From positions 124,001 through 188,000 of the forward strand of contig MHAZ01000021.1 of NCBI GenBank assembly GCA_001803165.1: 64,000 nt of DNA. Direction: 5' to 3'. The position numbers and the translations under genes are program-made. This document shows, one piece after another, positions 17,570-50,555 of the stretch. A model generated the notes under the pieces. The model saw only the letters and a program-made list of their open reading frames with translations, had not been told where the DNA came from and did not search any database. Within the stretch, counting starts at the first letter, position 1; each line of letters opens with the position of its first letter. This DNA comes from Stygiobacter sp. RIFOXYC2_FULL_38_25. GTDB taxonomy: Bacteria; Bacteroidota; Ignavibacteria; Ignavibacteriales; Melioribacteraceae.

Positions 17570-17924
17570 TTTATATTTACTTTTAGTTTGTAATCAATAT
17601 GTAATAAACACACCACAAGCTATTTAGAGGTTGCCGCTAATACAATAGCCAGTTTGGGTAAATGTGATAAAAGCAATTAAAAATGAAAAATTGAAAATTG
17701 AGAATTGTGATTGACCCGCTTGAGTTGAGCGAGGCAAGGAATTGAGAACTTGTCCGCCGTTTTGCTTGCCCGCCGTTTTGTGGCGGGTTTTGCGGATTGA
17801 GGATTATGAATGGAGAAGTAAAAATATTTTAATTGGAGTGCAGCAGAAAAGAATAAAATGTGTGGCTGTTGTTTAAGTGCAGTATAATTTTTAATAACTG
17901 CTCATAGAACAGCCACATGAGCTA
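17570..17924. other. Gap with long dispersed repeat, copy A
   Basis: 355 bp without a gene. From 17641 to about 17820 it carries a repeat of roughly 175 bp whose second copy is at 18730-18905. It opens with TACAATAGCCAGTTTGGG, continues through an AATTGAGAATTG low-complexity part, and holds a CCCGCC/GGCGGG hairpin near 17770-17790. The left part should contain the promoter of the LamG gene. Confidence 0.8.
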
Positions 17925-18596
17925 TTACAACTCGAGCATTAATCCCGCGCTAACAGAAAAAAACGTAACGGTTGAATTTGAAGACTGAGATTCTGAGTAA
18001 CCCGAACTGCTTGAAGACATACTGGTGCCAACCTCCAGTCCATTTCCGCAAATCTTTCCATTAATATCAATGTTCACTTTGGAAGCTACTTTAATAAGAA
18101 ATCCAACGCCAAGTCCCCACCCAAAAGTTGATTTGGATTGTTCAGCCACGGCATTCAAAGTTTCTCCGTTAACTTTGATAGATGATGCGTCGACAGATAC
18201 TAAGTGTAATCCAAGGTTAAGTTCCGAATAAGGTCTAAAATTGGAAGATGAAAAAAGGTATTTTCCGCCAATCATCAACGGAATAATTTTTAGTTTGGAT
18301 TGAATATCAACATTCACTTCGGTGCCGAAAGAGCTAAAGAAAGCGCTCAGTAGTTCATTATACTTTTCATTGTTAAAACTGAATTGGGAATAACCGGCAA
18401 TAGCGGAAAGTTGAAAATTATCCGATACATCGTAAGTTAAGCAGGCATTTCCGCCAAACCCGGATTTGTAAACATCGCCGAAATCTCCGGTTGGACTTAA
18501 GTATGAACCACTAACTCCTAACCCTAATTTTGTTTGAGCCGATAGAAGTGTAACGCTAAGTACCAATAACAATACGGCATAAATCATTTTTTTCAT
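17925..18596 (-). CDS. Outer membrane beta-barrel protein (OmpA-like porin fold)
   Basis: A 223-residue protein with a signal peptide (to about residue 20, LLSAQ). The rest has alternating amphipathic strands typical of an eight-stranded outer membrane barrel: LGLGVSGSYLSPTGDF, FGGNACLTYDV, LMIGGKYLF, GWGLGVGFLIKV and a C-terminal FFSVSAGLMLEL ending in an aromatic/leucine strand. The exact role (adhesion, structure, porin) cannot be told. The gene is bracketed by two copies of a roughly 175-bp direct repeat. Its upstream copy begins with an 18-bp element also found upstream of the LamG gene and of the response regulator gene. Confidence 0.82.
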   Translation of the reverse strand: MKKMIYAVLLLVLSVTLLSAQTKLGLGVSGSYLSPTGDFGDVYKSGFGGNACLTYDVSDNFQLSAIAGYSQFSFNNEKYNELLSAFFSSFGTEVNVDIQSKLKIIPLMIGGKYLFSSSNFRPYSELNLGLHLVSVDASSIKVNGETLNAVAEQSKSTFGWGLGVGFLIKVASKVNIDINGKICGNGLEVGTSMSSSSSGYSESQSSNSTVTFFSVSAGLMLEL

Positions 18597-18729
18597 GTTG
18601 TCCCTCTAGTTGGTTAATAAAGTTTGATGTCTGGTGAATTAATTATCTAAACCTTTGTTGTACTATTCAAATTATTACACCTTAAATAAGTGTTATTGCA
18701 AATCAAAACTATTCAATGTATATGGCGCA

Positions 18730-18905
18730 TACAATAGCCAGTTTGGGTAAATGTGATAAAAGCAATTAAAAATGAAAAATTGAAAATTGAGAATTGTGAA
18801 TTGTGAATGGACCCGCTTGAGTCGAGCGAGGCAAGGAATGAAGGATTGAGAACTTGTCCACCGTTTTGCTTGCCCGCCGTTTTTTGGCGGGTTTGGCGGG
18901 TTGAG
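18730..18905. repeat. Long dispersed repeat, copy B
   Basis: Nearly identical to 17641-17820 over about 175 bp, in the same orientation, with a few short indels (for example an extra AATTGTG unit). It includes the TACAATAGCCAGTTTGGG opening and a CCCGCC-loop-GGCGGG hairpin. Together the two copies bracket the 223-residue barrel gene. Confidence 0.9.
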
Positions 18906-26046: not shown

Positions 26047-26076
26047 AAATATAGTAAATGAGAAAGGAAGTTAGAA
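26047..26076. repeat. Perfect 30-bp direct repeat, left copy, bordering the TIR-like cassette
   Basis: The 30 bases starting AAATATAGTAAATGAG and ending AAGTTAGAA are identical to 27042-27071. The two copies stand 995 bp apart and enclose exactly two genes. The flanking sequences on the outer and inner sides do not match. Confidence 0.92.
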
Positions 26077-26942: not shown

Positions 26943-27250
26943 TTATTCTCTCTTCTTTCTAAAATTTTGTTTCAATTCTCGAGTTTATATTAACATCTTT
27001 TTGCTTTATACACAACAGTTGGATTGTTCCATCTATGTAGTAAATATAGTAAATGAGAAAGGAAGTTAGAAGATGCAAAAAATTTGCTGTAAGAATAACC
27101 ATTTGATTATTACGAATCTGATTTTCCCTAAGAACAAGAATCACTTTGGTATCTAAAGAAAGGCTGTTTATTCTTTTCAAATATTTGGCATTATAAAAAA
27201 CTAACGATTAATTTAACGCATTACTTCTCCAAATATTTTTAGGATTAGCC
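26943..27250. other. Gap between the TIR-like cassette and phoU
   Basis: 308 bp without a supported gene. It contains the right copy of the 30-bp direct repeat (27042-27071) and the AT-rich upstream region of phoU. A 73-codon reading frame on the minus strand runs across the repeat and looks accidental. Confidence 0.6.
27042..27071. repeat. Perfect 30-bp direct repeat, right copy
   Basis: Identical to 26047-26076 over 30 bp and in the same orientation. It lies about 100 bp upstream of the first gene of the two-gene TIR-like cassette. It could be an insertion scar or a recombination border. Confidence 0.92.
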
Positions 27251-45343: not shown

Positions 45344-46168
45344 TTAATCTTGATCTTGGCGTAATACGTAAACCACAACTTCATTTTTTTCTTTCAGAAG
45401 AAAAAGAAAATCCATGTAAACAAAAAAGGAATCCGTGAGCAAAGCAGTTACATTTTCGTTTAGAGTTTCAGCCATGATTGTCTTTGTTGAATTTTTATTT
45501 AGCGCGACAAACCGGTTTGTGAGTTTTTCATCTTTCTCTTTAGCATGAAATGAAAACATCAGCAGTTCGTTTATGCTAGCCCACTCAATTTCACCCTTCA
45601 CAGAAAAACTCCGGGTGAAGTTCAAGATAGTTTGCATTGTAGTTTCATCGGCAGTAGAAAGATTTAGCTCCGGATAAACGTAACAGCTCCAGTCCTTTGC
45701 GATATCAGATTCCGCACGGAGAGAATTAACCAGTGTGTAATCGCTGCCCAAGTTTTCCTTTTGCTCACCGGACATATAATCCAGTGTAAGGAAATATCTG
45801 TCTTCAAATCCTTGAGTGAATGAATAAACTTTATCCTGATAAGCGAACAAGAAAGCGTTTTCGTTGTTATGCCAGAGAACTTTCTGCGAAGCAATATCAA
45901 GCGCAATTATTTCTTTGTGCCCGGGTAAATCTGGCTTGGGAAATTTGTGAAAGTAAATTACATCTTTATAAATCGCTTCAATCCCAAGCCAGGTCTTTTC
46001 TTCCAGTTGGTAATTGCTGAAAACACAATCACCAGTTTGCAAATCATAGCAATGAAACGAAACTTCCTTTGTTGTTGTGTCGCGCGTTTCAATTAAAAGC
46101 TTGTCAGTTTCAGTAATCAGAATTCTGAAAACTTGTTTATCAGATTTGAATTCAAAATGTTTTTTCAT
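45344..46168 (-). CDS. DUF4905 protein (predicted beta-propeller-like)
   Basis: A 274-residue soluble protein with the DUF4905 look: RILITETDKLLIETRDTTTKEVSFHCYDL, KTWLGIEAIYKDVIYFHKFPKPDLPGH, DIASQKVLWHN. Repeating four-strand units suggest a partial propeller. Function unknown. Its last codons (RQDQD and stop) lie in a CAAGATTAAGATTAAG-type dispersed repeat, so the native end may have been altered. In this group the family is often near metabolic genes; here it precedes AMMECR1/Memo. Confidence 0.75.
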   Translation of the reverse strand: MKKHFEFKSDKQVFRILITETDKLLIETRDTTTKEVSFHCYDLQTGDCVFSNYQLEEKTWLGIEAIYKDVIYFHKFPKPDLPGHKEIIALDIASQKVLWHNNENAFLFAYQDKVYSFTQGFEDRYFLTLDYMSGEQKENLGSDYTLVNSLRAESDIAKDWSCYVYPELNLSTADETTMQTILNFTRSFSVKGEIEWASINELLMFSFHAKEKDEKLTNRFVALNKNSTKTIMAETLNENVTALLTDSFFVYMDFLFLLKEKNEVVVYVLRQDQD

Positions 46169-46170
46169 AA

Positions 46171-46242
46171 AATTCTGAGCGAAGCGAAGAATCCGATCTT
46201 CAAATTAGTTTGAGATTCTTCGTCGCTCTGCTCCTCAGAATT
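46171..46242. repeat. Palindromic repeat between tryptophanase and DUF4905 genes
   Basis: TTCTGAGCGAAGCGAAGAATC and its imperfect inverse (GATTCTTCG ... GCTCCTCAGAA) form a long hairpin filling the 72-bp gap. It could terminate or attenuate the tryptophanase transcript. It reaches the tryptophanase stop codon. Confidence 0.65.
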
Positions 46243-47611
46243 AAATTTTCTTAAACCTTGCCGTAAAGTGTCTCAGCATCGGTGCTTCGTAAGTGAACGC
46301 ATAACCGCGCAGTTCATTTCTCTTTTTGTAAACTTCAATTAAGACTTCGGCTACATAATCAATATGACTTTGAGTGTAAACGCGGCGAGGAATAGCCATG
46401 CGAATCAACTCCATCATAGCCGGAATTAGTTTTCCATTTTCATCTTTCTTACCAAACATTACACTGCCAATTTCGCATGCGCGTATTCCGCCTTCTACGT
46501 ACATTTCGCAAGTGATTGCCTGTCCCGGAAATTGTTCTGCCGGAATATGCGGCGCGAAACGTTTCGCATCAATATAAATTGCATGTCCTCCCGGCGGTTC
46601 AATAATTGGAATTCCATTGCTCAGCATTTTTTCGCCAAGATATTCCGTGCTGCGGATTCTGTATTCTAAGTAATGTTCATCAACAACTTCTTCTAAACCT
46701 TGCGCAATAGCTTCGAGATCGCGTCCGGCTAATCCGCCGTATGTTGGAAATCCTTCTGTAACTATTAACAAGTTGCGGCATAGCATAGCAAGACGGTCGT
46801 TATTTAAGGAAAGCCAGCCGCCAATATTTACCAGCGCGTCTTTCTTTGCGCTCATTGTTGAACCATCCGCGTAAGAAAACATTTCTTGGCAGATTTCCAA
46901 AACGGTTTTGTCTTTGTAACCATCTTCCCGCAATTTTATAAAGTAGGCATTCTCTGCAAAGCGGCATGCATCTAAGAACAACGGAATGTTATTCTTCTTG
47001 CACACAGCAGAAACATCTTTTATGTTCTTCATCGAAACCGGCTGTCCGCCGCCGGAATTATTGGTTACAGTAAGCATAATTAGCGGAATGTTTTCTCTTC
47101 CATACTTTTTGATAAATGCTTCAAGCGCCGGAACATCCATATCGCCTTTGAATGGCGCGCGCTGCTCGGGATGTTTGCCAACTTCATTCAGCAAGTCGTG
47201 CGCTTCCGCTCCGGAGAATTCTACATTAGCACGCGTTGTATCAAAGAAAGTATTCGCGGCAAAATATTTTCCCTTTCCACCTAGAATGGAAAACAAAATT
47301 TTCTCTGCTGCTCTTCCTTGATGAGTTGGAATAATAAACTTATCGCTGGTAATTTTTTTTACTGCCGCTTCGAAGCGGTAAAAACTTCTAGCGCCGGCAT
47401 AGCTTTCATCGCCGCGCATAATCCCCGCCCACTGATCCGAGCTCATTGCGGATGTGCCGCTATCGGTTAGCAAGTCAATCAATACATCATCAGCTTTGAT
47501 TAAGAATGGGTTATAGCCGGCTTCTTCTAAAATTTTTGCGCGCTCTTCTTTAGTTGTAAATCTTATCGGTTCAACGGATTTGATTCTGAAAGGCTCAATA
47601 ATGGTTTTCAT
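46241..47611 (-). CDS. tnaA: Tryptophanase (beta-eliminating lyase, PLP-dependent)
   Basis: A 456-residue PLP enzyme; start set at MKTIIEPFRIKSVEP (ATG at 47611, AAAGAGGAATT upstream). Motifs: LIDLLTDSGTSAMS, MRGDESYAG, THQGRAAE, NNSGGGQPVS, the PLP Lys in MSAKKDALVNIGG, EGFPTYGGLAGRD and the C-terminal APMLRHFTARFKKI. GIRACEIGS resembles tryptophanase (GIRAVEIGS) rather than tyrosine phenol-lyase (GVRSMERG), which guides the call. It splits L-tryptophan into indole, pyruvate and ammonia. No tnaC-type leader or permease is seen. Some related lyases act on tyrosine, so specificity is likely, not proven. Confidence 0.87.
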   Translation of the reverse strand: MKTIIEPFRIKSVEPIRFTTKEERAKILEEAGYNPFLIKADDVLIDLLTDSGTSAMSSDQWAGIMRGDESYAGARSFYRFEAAVKKITSDKFIIPTHQGRAAEKILFSILGGKGKYFAANTFFDTTRANVEFSGAEAHDLLNEVGKHPEQRAPFKGDMDVPALEAFIKKYGRENIPLIMLTVTNNSGGGQPVSMKNIKDVSAVCKKNNIPLFLDACRFAENAYFIKLREDGYKDKTVLEICQEMFSYADGSTMSAKKDALVNIGGWLSLNNDRLAMLCRNLLIVTEGFPTYGGLAGRDLEAIAQGLEEVVDEHYLEYRIRSTEYLGEKMLSNGIPIIEPPGGHAIYIDAKRFAPHIPAEQFPGQAITCEMYVEGGIRACEIGSVMFGKKDENGKLIPAMMELIRMAIPRRVYTQSHIDYVAEVLIEVYKKRNELRGYAFTYEAPMLRHFTARFKKI

Positions 47612-47789
47612 AATTCCTCTTTTTAGTGAGAGAAAATTAAGAATTATCAGCAAGGAATAGAACGCAGATTTAATTGATTAAACTGATTTACACAGATAAT
47701 TCTCTGGAAGCACATGTAAAGCATACTTGACATTTTGTAAAGAATGCTATATGTTGGTTTTGAAATTAATTAACTCATGTGAGAACAAA

Positions 47790-48167
47790 ATGAAACTAGT
47801 TTTTAAAAATTTTTCATTTCCGTACCGTAAGCAAGCAATGTTTGCAAGTATAATTCTTATTCTTTCAATTACATACTTAAAAACCTTCTGGCACTTTTAC
47901 CCAATTTTTGCTTTAATATTTTTCACACTACTAATGTCTTATTCATTTCTTGGTAATTATAAATTACTCGATAAAATGGACGAATTACAAAAATTAATTC
48001 AGTTGGAGCGGGGCTATTTGTTAAGTCAATTCATTCCTCTCATAATCTTTGTTGTATTCCTTATTAATCAATATTATCAAATCAGCATTGATCTAACTAT
48101 CGTTTTCATTTTATTTGCTGTCATCGTTCAAAGCGCACAGCAATACTTAAAGAAGAAATATTCATGA
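47790..48167 (+). CDS. Small membrane protein 1 of the HTH/membrane array
   Basis: A 125-residue protein with four predicted membrane helices. Start set at MKLVFKNFSF (47790), which gives the same size as the other two array proteins (126 and 127). Between helix pairs it has DKMDELQKLIQLE, matching the DE-x(3-4)-I-x-LE position in its relatives. It ends KKKYS and its TGA overlaps the ATG of a broken HTH gene. The pattern resembles DUF2178-like proteins often encoded next to XRE regulators. Function unknown. Confidence 0.65.
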   Translation: MKLVFKNFSFPYRKQAMFASIILILSITYLKTFWHFYPIFALIFFTLLMSYSFLGNYKLLDKMDELQKLIQLERGYLLSQFIPLIIFVVFLINQYYQISIDLTIVFILFAVIVQSAQQYLKKKYS

Positions 48168-48391
48168 AAAACAATCTTCACGTTTTGCGCGCGGAGAGAC
48201 GTTTACCTCAAGATGATTTGGCGAAACTGCTGGAAGTTGCAGAAAGAACTATTATTCACATGCTTCTCTCTGTGAACTTTGCAAATCTGTTTTCACAGCG
48301 CTTTGCGCTCTCTGCGGTAAAGGCCTTTCCGCCTTTGGCGGACGCAAAGGACGTCAAGTTTTCGCAGATAACACAAAGTGAAGATATATAA
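48164..48391 (+). pseudogene. XRE-type HTH gene broken by a repeat, copy A
   Basis: The first 27 codons (MKNNLHVLRAERRLPQDDLAK, then LLEV) match the intact HTH protein at 49022. After LLEV the frame passes into a palindromic repeat (TTCACAGCGCTTTGCGCTCTCTGCG ... style DNA, about 48240-48385), giving an unrelated tail. The recognition helix and the rest of the HTH are missing, so the product cannot bind DNA normally. It starts inside the stop of membrane protein 1 (ATGA overlap). Confidence 0.8.
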
Positions 48392-48408
48392 TTCAGTAAG
48401 GAGACAAG

Positions 48409-48789
48409 ATGAAACAAGATTCAATCAAGAAAAAATACCGCTTTGGTAAAGCCGTCGCATACTTATCATTTCTAATTGGAATCTACGGAACATATTTCGC
48501 ACCAGATTATTTGAAATTTTTTCCAATAATACTTTCTGTTGTTGGAATAATATACTATGTATTAGGCGAACACAATAAAATTGAAAATGGAGATGAGTTG
48601 GAAAAAAAGATTCATCTGGAATCTCTATCTCTTTCATTCAACACCTTAATTGTCGCAATTTGGTTTATAATGCTTATAGATATCAACGTGTACAAATTAG
48701 GGAGTTCAACTTTTACCATTATTTACCTAATAGGTTTTCTCGGAATTTGGCCTTCATGCAAATTCATTGTTAGAAAGAAATATTCATGA
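48409..48789 (+). CDS. Small membrane protein 2 of the HTH/membrane array
   Basis: A 126-residue protein with four predicted helices and the central motif NGDELEKKIHLES. It ends VRKKYS, as membrane protein 1 ends KKKYS, although the rest of the two sequences has diverged strongly. AAGGAGACAAG gives a strong ribosome binding site. Its stop overlaps the start of broken HTH copy B by four bases. The family is the same uncharacterised one as proteins 1 and 3. Confidence 0.68.
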   Translation: MKQDSIKKKYRFGKAVAYLSFLIGIYGTYFAPDYLKFFPIILSVVGIIYYVLGEHNKIENGDELEKKIHLESLSLSFNTLIVAIWFIMLIDINVYKLGSSTFTIIYLIGFLGIWPSCKFIVRKKYS

Positions 48790-49025
48790 AAAACAATTTA
48801 CACGTTTTGCGCGCAGAGAGACGTTTATCTCAAGATGATTTGGCGAAACTGCTGGAAGTTGCAGAAAGAACTATTATTCACATGCTTCTCTCTGTGAACT
48901 TTGCAAATCTGTTTTCACAGCGCTTTGCGCTCTCTGCGTTAAAAGCCTTAACCGCAAAGGACGCAAAGTTCTCGCAGAGAATACAAAGGAGAAATACTTT
49001 TAGCGTAGGTTTTCATATTTCATGA
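48786..49025 (+). pseudogene. XRE-type HTH gene broken by a repeat, copy B
   Basis: Identical in design to copy A: 27 intact HTH codons, then the same junction (LLEV-AERTIIHM) into a palindromic repeat in which CTTTGCGCTCTCTGCG-TTAA faces TTAACCGCAAAGGACGCAAAG-type DNA. As copies A and B share the insertion point, the insertion happened once and was duplicated. The end (GFHIS, stop) overlaps the ATG of the intact HTH gene by four bases. Confidence 0.8.
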
Positions 49026-49219
49026 AAAACAACTTACACGTTTTACGCGCGGAGAGGCGTTTATCTCAAGATGATTTAGCGAAACTGTTGGAAGTTTCCC
49101 GCCAGACTATAAACGCTATCGAGCGTGAGAAGTATGACCCGAGTCTGCCCCTTGCATTAAAGATTGCCAAAGTGTTTGAAAGAAAAGTAGAAGAGATATT
49201 TTTTATGGAGGAAAAATGA
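49022..49219 (+). CDS. XRE-family transcriptional regulator (intact copy C)
   Basis: A 65-residue single HTH_3 domain: LRAERRLSQDDLAKLLEVSRQTINAIEREKY, then DPSLPLALKIAKVF and a short end EEIFFMEEK. This is the minimal Cro/C1-like regulator class that is usually paired with a small membrane protein. Its stop overlaps the start of membrane protein 3 by four bases. The first 81 bases are nearly identical to the two broken copies upstream. It probably represses its own operon. Confidence 0.92.
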   Translation: MKNNLHVLRAERRLSQDDLAKLLEVSRQTINAIEREKYDPSLPLALKIAKVFERKVEEIFFMEEK

Positions 49220-49599
49220 ATCTGACGAAGCAGCTAAAATTGGAATTGTTCTGTGGAATGTTACTATTACTAATTCCTTTTTCCTTAATGTATGTTGGTG
49301 AGATTCCAAGAATTATAGACGGCTTCGTCCAACTCAATATTTTACTATTTGGCTTCAATCGTATTTATGGTATTAATTTCAAGCTGAAGCTCGATGAAAG
49401 AGAGCAAATTATCGTTAACAAAACAAGCGGAGCCGCAGCTTTTATTCTAATCTTTTTGATGCTTGTTTATTTTTCTCTGAGAACGGCTGTTTCAATTTCT
49501 AATGGAATTACAATAAACGAATACTGGGGATACTTTCTCGTTCCGGTTTTTCTTATAGCTCACTCCTCGGCTGGATTAATATTATCAAGTTTTGAATAG
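49216..49599 (+). CDS. Small membrane protein 3 of the HTH/membrane array
   Basis: A 127-residue protein with four predicted helices (first at about 10-30) and the inter-helix motif KLKLDEREQIIVNKTSGAAAF, in the same place as in proteins 1 and 2. DE-R-x-x-x-I after the second helix is a signature of the uncharacterised membrane proteins that accompany small XRE regulators. It is coupled to the intact HTH gene. Function unknown. Confidence 0.68.
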   Translation: MNLTKQLKLELFCGMLLLLIPFSLMYVGEIPRIIDGFVQLNILLFGFNRIYGINFKLKLDEREQIIVNKTSGAAAFILIFLMLVYFSLRTAVSISNGITINEYWGYFLVPVFLIAHSSAGLILSSFE

Positions 49600-49724
49600 A
49601 CGAAGCAATATTTCTTCCGGGAGGCTTTAAGCCTTACTCCCATAAAAAGTTGTATTAATATTTGGTTGGAATTTGCTAATTTGCATCGGTAACCCTCACC
49701 AAATAAGAATCAAGGAGAAATCAA

Positions 49725-50555
49725 ATGGAAGAAATGCAAAACCAGGATGCACCAAAGATGTCCTCCGTTGAAGACGCACAAGAAGAACAAGAACTTTCAC
49801 ACACCGATAAGCTGGTTGGAGTTTTTACAGAACCTGCTGCAATGTTCAGCAAGGCGGCAAAGTTTCCTGCTAAAACTGCCGATTGGATCATTCCGGTTCT
49901 TGTAGTTATTGTAATCTCTATTCTTTCCCAGTTTGTAATGATGAGCAACGCTGAAATTAAACGTCAGCAGCAAGATAAGATAATGGAAAGAATGGAAAAG
50001 CAATTTGATGAAGCTGTTGAAAAAGGGCAGATGACACGTGAACAAGCTGATCAGCAATTAGATACCATGCAAGACAATATGGGCGCCGCTGGTGCTTTTC
50101 AGACAATTGGAATTGTAGTTGGAATTCCAGTAGGGACTTTTATTGTATTCTTTGTGATATCGGGATTTTTCTTTGCGGTCGCAAAATTCGGCCTGAAGGG
50201 AGAAGGCTCTTATAAAGATATTATGGTTGCCTACGGCTTACCATGGTACATTTCCGTAATCGAACTTATAATTACTGTTATTGCCGCGCTGGCAATGAGT
50301 AAGCTAATGACGGGACTTAGCGCAGCAGATCTTATGGGAACAGATAAATCTACAATAACAGGCTTTGTCTTAGGCAAAGTAAATCTGTTCTCAATTTGGT
50401 TTTATGTTGCCTTTGGAATTGGCTTGGCTAAGATGAATAAATCCGATAATGTTAAAAAATATGTTATTGCAGTTTTTGCAATCTGGATTGGTTTTGGATT
50501 ACTCTTCCATTTCTTAACAAAAGCAGTTCCATTCTTAGCAAACTTTGCCGGGTAA
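49725..50555 (+). CDS. Yip1-domain membrane protein
   Basis: A 276-residue protein. An acidic N-terminal tail (residues 1-25) precedes the Yip1 start, LVGVFTEPAAMFSKAAKFP. Five predicted membrane helices follow (about 48-68, 120-145, 165-190, 212-235 and 245-265), with a charged coiled-coil-like loop at about 72-112 (QQQDKIMERMEKQFDEAVEKGQ). Bacterial Yip1 proteins are uncharacterised. AAGGAG precedes the ATG. A single gene, convergent with the pseudouridine synthase across a palindromic repeat. Confidence 0.85.
   Translation: MEEMQNQDAPKMSSVEDAQEEQELSHTDKLVGVFTEPAAMFSKAAKFPAKTADWIIPVLVVIVISILSQFVMMSNAEIKRQQQDKIMERMEKQFDEAVEKGQMTREQADQQLDTMQDNMGAAGAFQTIGIVVGIPVGTFIVFFVISGFFFAVAKFGLKGEGSYKDIMVAYGLPWYISVIELIITVIAALAMSKLMTGLSAADLMGTDKSTITGFVLGKVNLFSIWFYVAFGIGLAKMNKSDNVKKYVIAVFAIWIGFGLLFHFLTKAVPFLANFAG

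Follow-up and report, generated by a model that had tools for sequence, protein, structure and literature searches.

In a 64,000-nucleotide stretch of Stygiobacter sp. RIFOXYC2_FULL_38_25 (contig MHAZ01000021.1, positions 124,001 to 188,000; hereafter the window), we found that a row of small membrane protein genes with a single XRE-type (HTH) regulator is a real and variable locus that carries probable scars of gene displacement. We read it as an autoregulated operon resembling CylR1/CylR2, whose membrane genes would have been added serially at the HTH gene, each addition leaving a stub of that gene as its scar, and we put the probability of this reading at a little under 60%.

An optional insert at a fixed genomic site

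Within the Melioribacteraceae (Ignavibacteria), the array is present in some genomes and absent from others at a site flanked by a lyase gene and a Yip1 gene. On its left lies a divergently transcribed beta-eliminating lyase gene (46241–47611, minus strand; tryptophanase-like; PF01212, 3e-79) and on its right a Yip1-domain membrane protein gene (49725–50555, plus strand). The six neighbouring genes that we examined encode the beta-eliminating lyase, DUF4905, AMMECR1, Memo, Yip1 and pseudouridine synthase proteins, with no lantibiotic gene among them, and Rfam gave no match in 46000–50500. Searches of 79 genomes of the family retrieved the Yip1 protein in 70 (E to 1e-20), the HTH protein in 35 (E to 1e-10, the weaker of which may be other XRE proteins) and the downstream membrane protein, mem3, in 11 (E to 0.01, the weakest of these matches containing stop codons or falling in other genes). 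Ten Yip1 loci without an HTH match were inspected; the lyase gene adjoins the Yip1 gene in seven of them, including four from the same genus as the window, while the remaining three have a contig end or other genes at that place. Since the two anchors are adjacent at most of these loci, the array is an optional insert at a fixed site. At locus L092 (genome G066) the Yip1-adjacent lyase gene is apparently split into two frames.

Layout of the array and its membrane proteins

The gene order given in the earlier note, mem1–HTH(A)–mem2–HTH(B)–HTH(C)–mem3, all on the plus strand, was correct when coordinates were read in the window, as were its ATGA overlaps, which occur at four of the five junctions, with a gap only between HTH(A) and mem2. 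The membrane proteins are mem1 (47790–48167, 125 aa, motif MDELQKLI, C-terminus KKKYS), mem2 (48409–48789, 126 aa, motif GDELEKKI, C-terminus RKKYS) and mem3 (49216–49599, 127 aa, motif LDEREQII). All three are predicted four-helix membrane proteins, and mem2 and mem3 were modelled as such with a mean pLDDT of 87 and 81, respectively. We also recovered the DE-x(3-4)-I motif in all three; in the mem2 and mem3 models it falls where the third membrane helix begins. An alignment position that never varies among 20 upstream proteins, drawn from several phyla, is E63 of mem2, while D62 is almost invariant there; in 10 downstream proteins the same holds for E61 of mem3, which is invariant. As had been claimed, the membrane proteins are otherwise strongly diverged, mem1 and mem2 being 34% identical over 101 aa.

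Profile searches linked these proteins to no Pfam family. Mem3 had no match in Pfam, and the best matches of the 20 upstream proteins were at about 3e-4, to families matched by at most two members. When PDB structures were searched with the mem2 model, the best E was 4.3 and all 37 chains stayed below a Z of 8, so that no fold was assigned; a profile of the upstream family against PDB sequences found no related protein (best E 0.015). Comparison of the upstream and downstream membrane profiles returned a probability of 30%, too low to show a common origin.

One complete regulator and two stubs

The earlier note described three HTH genes with almost identical first 81 bases. The shared start itself held up, as 78 nt on the plus strand beginning at 48161, 48783 and 49019, with A 95% and C 92% identical to B, while the count of genes did not. 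HTH(C) (49022–49219, 65 aa) alone passes a Pfam cut-off (HTH_3, 5e-14), and the products of A and B fall below every one; as A and B are also truncated, the three genes are one gene and two stubs of 25 codons each (48164–48238 and 48786–48860). About 25 codons into both stubs, DNA begins that is shared between them and is not of HTH origin, followed by a CTTTGCG/CGCAAAG palindrome. This palindromic sequence occupies 48239–48378 behind stub A, where it contains an extra TCCGCCTTTGGCGG-like stretch, and 48861–49021 between stub B and HTH(C), where its right half can be aligned with a relative from the same genus (G068), all on the plus strand. Stub and repeat together form a block of 175 nt that is 97% alike between A and B. 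A genome search with the HTH start gave no other good match elsewhere in the genome.

HTH(C) is a CylR2-like protein of the XRE/HTH_3 group. Its nearest solved proteins are a PbsX-family regulator (9k3w, 5e-19) and CylR2 (1utx, 1.5e-16), and phmmer aligned it with CylR2 over residues 3–61 (1utx, 1.5e-16; 2xiu, 2.9e-16). XRE antitoxins often adjoin small toxins, and a type II toxin–antitoxin or defence module, in which a membrane toxin is held by an XRE antitoxin, would account for such a neighbourhood; PADLOC matches of the HTH protein to HTH_VI (2e-12) and capH (3e-9) also point in this direction. Such a module is nevertheless very improbable here, given that the closest solved relatives are the PbsX regulator and CylR2, that several membrane genes accompany one HTH gene and that the best PADLOC match of a membrane protein is only 0.044. 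For the array proteins, no match of useful strength to a toxin or immunity family came from Pfam, NCBIfam or PADLOC, and all the NCBIfam antitoxin models listed for the HTH protein were under their curated cut-off.

The substitutions separating the stubs from HTH(C) point to a recent origin of the stubs. Within the first 75 nt, A and B differ at four positions, B and C at six, and A and C at eight. Over these 25 codons, all six differences between B and C are synonymous, as are seven of those between A and C, which also show one other change, compared with a nonsynonymous share of 0.77 expected for random changes. Because nearly all changes are synonymous, stubs A and B were probably severed recently, having first diverged while still functional. 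Stub B is about as far from C (6 of 75) as C is from the HTH gene of G068 (5 of 75), and both stubs are closest to HTH genes of their own genus, with 6–9 differences per 75 nt compared with at least 17 to others. A comparison of 5' and 3' divergence was made to look for homogenisation: between HTH genes, close pairs differ less in their 5' than in their 3' part (for example, 6.7 versus 13.2%) and distant pairs more, giving no clear mosaic.

An excess of synonymous change could also mean that the stubs are retained because they encode short functional peptides, incomplete HTH proteins able to pair with HTH(C) or to compete with it. All differences between B and C being synonymous agrees with this, as do the open, ATGA-coupled reading frames of stubs A and B (75 and 79 aa). 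We consider it improbable, however, since the stubs lack most of the HTH domain, the stub found in the related genomes G030 and G027 (described below) has many replacement changes and a candidate third stub in G027 is only 10 codons long.

Variable membrane genes in relatives

We inspected 20 stretches around HTH matches in relatives, some of which are cut by contig ends. The locus that the earlier note proposed to look for in relatives is present there, in the form of one complete HTH gene accompanied by one to several four-helix membrane genes that vary in kind and order. Genome G018 has no membrane gene upstream of the HTH gene. A membrane gene of about 141 aa (the A type) abuts the HTH gene in G013, G019, G021, G029 and G047, and likewise at loci L133, L136, L140 and L141. 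In G028, G030 and G027 the A type heads the row and a different gene abuts the HTH gene, namely a 128-aa type in G028, another 128-aa type in G030 and a 260-aa type in G027. A '133' type abuts the HTH gene in G024 and is internal in G030 and G027 (94% identical between these two), and the 260 type, which abuts the HTH gene in G027, is internal in G024. Both occur exclusively at this locus, the 133 type in 3 of 79 family genomes (E to 1e-6) and the 260 type in 2 of 79 (E to 1e-8). Nearly all upstream membrane types end, at the HTH start, in a basic K/R-x-K/R-Y-x tail. In close genomes the HTH proteins are 78–94% identical to HTH(C), and six whole-length matches to mem3 are 28–60% identical. In G029 (L077:6576-7830), the first mem3-like frame downstream of the HTH gene has twice the length, at 274 aa, and may be a fusion.

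In G030 and G027 the row begins with the A-type gene, an HTH stub of about 22 codons, a piece that resembles the 3' end of a further membrane gene and leads into ATGAAAA, and the 133-type gene, and it ends with the 128 type (G030) or 260 type (G027), the complete HTH gene and mem3. In G027 the stub lies at a contig end. The piece behind the stub in G030 aligns over 26 bases to that genome's own junction of membrane and HTH genes, with 23 matches. This stub is closest to the HTH genes of G027 and G030 themselves and, given its many replacement changes, it looks old. The same HTH gene accompanied by differing membrane genes, together with a stub in another genus, fits entry of genes at the HTH start.

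An unlikely alternative is that whole pairs of membrane and HTH genes were duplicated in tandem, the spare HTH genes then decaying and the membrane genes diverging fast, with no insertion from outside. This would explain why the stubs derive from the HTH gene of their own lineage, why mem1 and mem2 are homologous and why the regions of stubs A and B, repeat included, are 97% alike over 175 nt. Two observations argue against it: the 133 and 260 types are shared between species in a different order, unlike local duplicates, and the stubs have diverged much less than the membrane genes that adjoin them. The HTH starts are out of step with the membrane genes, as the earlier note had proposed, stubs A and B being identical at 71 of 75 nt compared with the 34% identity of mem1 and mem2.

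Probable scars at membrane-gene junctions

Serial addition at the HTH gene would leave HTH remnants behind displaced membrane genes, and we tested ten junctions at which the element behind a membrane gene is not a complete HTH gene. Homology to the HTH 5' end was clear at four: at stubs A and B of the window, behind the A type in G030 (49 of 60 bases matching) and in G068, where the stub is short (14 of 16 bases, with none of 175 other start codons as good) and the contig starts within the last codons of the preceding membrane gene. The signal was mixed behind the 133 type in G027 and absent at the five others (behind the 133 type in G030, at two junctions of G024 and at one each of G028 and G039). 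The stub cases that are strong beyond chance are only those of the window and of the G030/G027 lineage. The idea of a cassette array, put forward in the earlier note, thus survives in that the HTH start marks the entry point; it does not in that there is one regulator and that half of the junctions carry no recognisable stub, with one mixed. Nor was a site-specific recombination system seen among the features examined. A role of the HTH segment as recombination repeat is a reading drawn from these scars.

Two candidates gave divided results. One is the mixed junction of G027, where a candidate third stub following the 133-type gene ends after 10 codons; in the DNA test, it was equalled by 3 of 284 start codons and by 152 of 500 shuffles, and in the peptide test 2 of 291 were, against a null that still contained the stub itself and the complete HTH gene. 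In G029, a 30-base match to the HTH 3' end lies directly before the second downstream membrane gene. At the DNA level, none of 2000 shuffles and none of 2619 other windows were as good once HTH genes had been removed, compared with 22 of 2617 windows in a control still holding them. In an HTH profile scan, the G029 relic scored 28.5 bits and the G027 stub 21.3 bits, with an antisense null reaching 21.0 bits and a 27.6-bit match 4.3 kb outside the array, and neither candidate was accordingly accepted on profile score; the DNA-level result for the G029 relic nevertheless speaks for displacement. The 155-base gap between membrane gene and HTH gene in G039 gave no stub signal (18 of 210 as good); despite this negative test, it contains (L084:816-974) GTTTTACGCGCGG, which recurs unchanged within the HTH start of the window. 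The gap before the A gene at L141, when read, held no evident relic. Among the genomes compared, we saw no pair of strains representing the states before and after an insertion.

The CTTTGCG-type palindrome stands behind both stubs of the window and behind that of G068, and its 16-base core is dispersed in the genome, with 29 matches at up to two mismatches compared with 4 for a reversed control. These two facts would be expected if the array had been built by a mobile palindromic repeat that carried HTH 5' fragments along, the membrane genes being incidental. We give this explanation very little credence, because the stub junctions in G030 and G027 have no such repeat and none of the five other copies inspected in the window's own genome has an HTH fragment beside it, nor did the genome search find any. 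The insertion reading has its own difficulty here: in the window, stub B runs through the palindrome into HTH(C) with no intervening membrane gene, which insertion explains only through a lost gene or a separate event. Elsewhere in the window, two stretches about 1.1 kb apart (17617–18905) share blocks of 94 bases (51 of them identical), 61 bases and 33 bases, possibly a duplicated repeat, and an identical 30-base direct repeat occurs at 26047–26076 and 27042–27071, 995 bases apart.

A candidate operator at the array promoter

The motif TGTAAAGCATACTTGACATTTTGTAAAGAATRCTATATGTT, or a variant of it, is found upstream of the first gene of the row, whatever that gene is, in all 11 lyase-linked regions, the window included. 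It joins a TTGACA/TATGTT promoter match, with a 17-base spacer in the window, to two TGTAAAG sites. In the window, the promoter with its double operator lies at 47715–47755 on the plus strand and reads TGTAAAGCATACTTGACA, then TGTAAAG, with TTGACA at 47727 and TATGTT ending at 47755. The motif is weaker in G018, L085 and G062 (37–41 bits compared with 56–60), and that of G062 contains a perfect palindrome, GACAAAATGTAAATAATACTTTACATTTTGTC. A scan for promoters overall found no excess of sites over shuffled sequence (7 versus 6.9), and the promoter assignment consequently rests on conservation.

A weight matrix built from the 11 lyase-linked sites, window included, was applied to other loci. 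In the 16 Yip1 loci without an HTH match there was no operator match at 10 bits or more. Twenty-five further loci, taken from 42 by leaving aside training genomes, siblings cut by contig ends and the weakest HTH matches, gave matches at 20 bits or more in seven, all upstream of the operon, with none in shuffled loci; six of these lie within 600 bases of the HTH start and that of L141 at −926. The other 18, mostly from other phyla, had no match at this threshold. Thirteen additional loci of the family, whose HTH genes are more distant, gave 12 matches with the threshold set at 18 bits, in each case, by coordinates, upstream of the HTH gene or of the membrane gene preceding it. A conserved palindromic motif at the operon promoter thus co-occurs with the HTH gene, whose product would be expected to bind it. 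Weaker forms were seen upstream of HTH–membrane gene pairs at L150 (24.8 bits; Methanolobus vulcani, an archaeon) and L148 (22.8 bits; Kordiimonas aquimaris, a proteobacterium), which suggests an old operator shared by CylR2-like regulators.

The 18-base operator site occurs at one place in its own genome at up to two mismatches, and a reversed control also gave one match; a single site points to a regulator that governs its own operon and little else. The candidate operator falls within 47611–47790, a region that the divergent lyase gene shares with the array, and the HTH protein might therefore affect the lyase gene too.

Discussion

In the working that we propose, HTH(C) would repress the array by binding the two TGTAAAG sites that overlie its promoter, the array would be read as one transcript, and the four-helix proteins would sense something at the membrane and alter HTH binding. 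A new membrane gene would arrive with an HTH 5' end and recombine into the HTH gene. The older membrane gene would thereby move one position upstream, still served by the same promoter and now followed by a truncated HTH 5' stub, so that the last HTH gene alone remains whole. The newest membrane gene would then be the one beside the HTH gene, a direction that we infer from the A type standing first in the row where other types are present. Since displaced genes lie between the promoter and the HTH gene, their inputs may add up.

CylR1/CylR2 of the Enterococcus faecalis cytolysin and Bib1R1/R2 of bibacillin 1 resemble the array in having an HTH protein of 65–66 residues related to CylR2 beside a small membrane protein gene. 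CylR2 is described as binding in the promoter region of its own operon and as acting with CylR1, a suspected membrane protein required for induction, by a mechanism given there as not known (PMC3709268; PMC11343131). The array differs in its Ignavibacteria host and in having several membrane partners per HTH protein, both upstream and downstream; CylR1 is described with three predicted helices (PMC3709268), whereas the array proteins have four and the DE-x(3-4)-I motif. As there is no lantibiotic gene among the six neighbours examined and the sole matching site in the genome is the array's own, we say that the array works like CylR1/CylR2 and do not file it as a member. Pairs in Heyndrickxia coagulans, Bacillus siamensis and Methanolobus vulcani, with HTH proteins 56–63% identical to HTH(C) beside a membrane gene with a DER motif, have one such membrane gene listed each within about 2.6 kb upstream and 1.4 kb downstream.

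Orphan CDI (cdiA-CT/cdiI) and Rhs modules offer a parallel for the scars: displaced variable modules are described there as retaining a fragment of the conserved gene, and their tandem arrays as a fossil record (PMC4927057). The HTH 5' stubs are likewise fragments of a conserved gene at the edge of displaced variable modules. Unlike in those systems, the conserved gene here is a regulator and the variable genes encode membrane proteins, displacement leaves genes downstream of the original promoter but ahead of the HTH gene, and no toxin domain was found. An integron cassette array would have an attC site at every junction and an integrase; in G030 and G027 the junctions lack the palindrome. 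In the literature searched, CylR1/CylR2-like regulators led to one paper and arrays of this kind to none, and searches on Melioribacter XRE proteins and XRE–membrane protein pairs returned nothing on this locus, as judged by titles and the beginnings of abstracts.

We suggest tentatively, and with more doubt than confidence, that the HTH 5' end might be a standing docking point for foreign membrane-sensor genes, through which one repressor would gather exchangeable receptors and the stubs would record the order of acquisition. If true, the locus would be a sensor-acquisition array, the signalling counterpart of the orphan toxin arrays. With one regulator, an operator-like motif and natural, exchangeable membrane partners, it would make CylR1-type signalling to an HTH protein testable, and it would suggest that module displacement, known from toxin loci, also acts on signalling genes.
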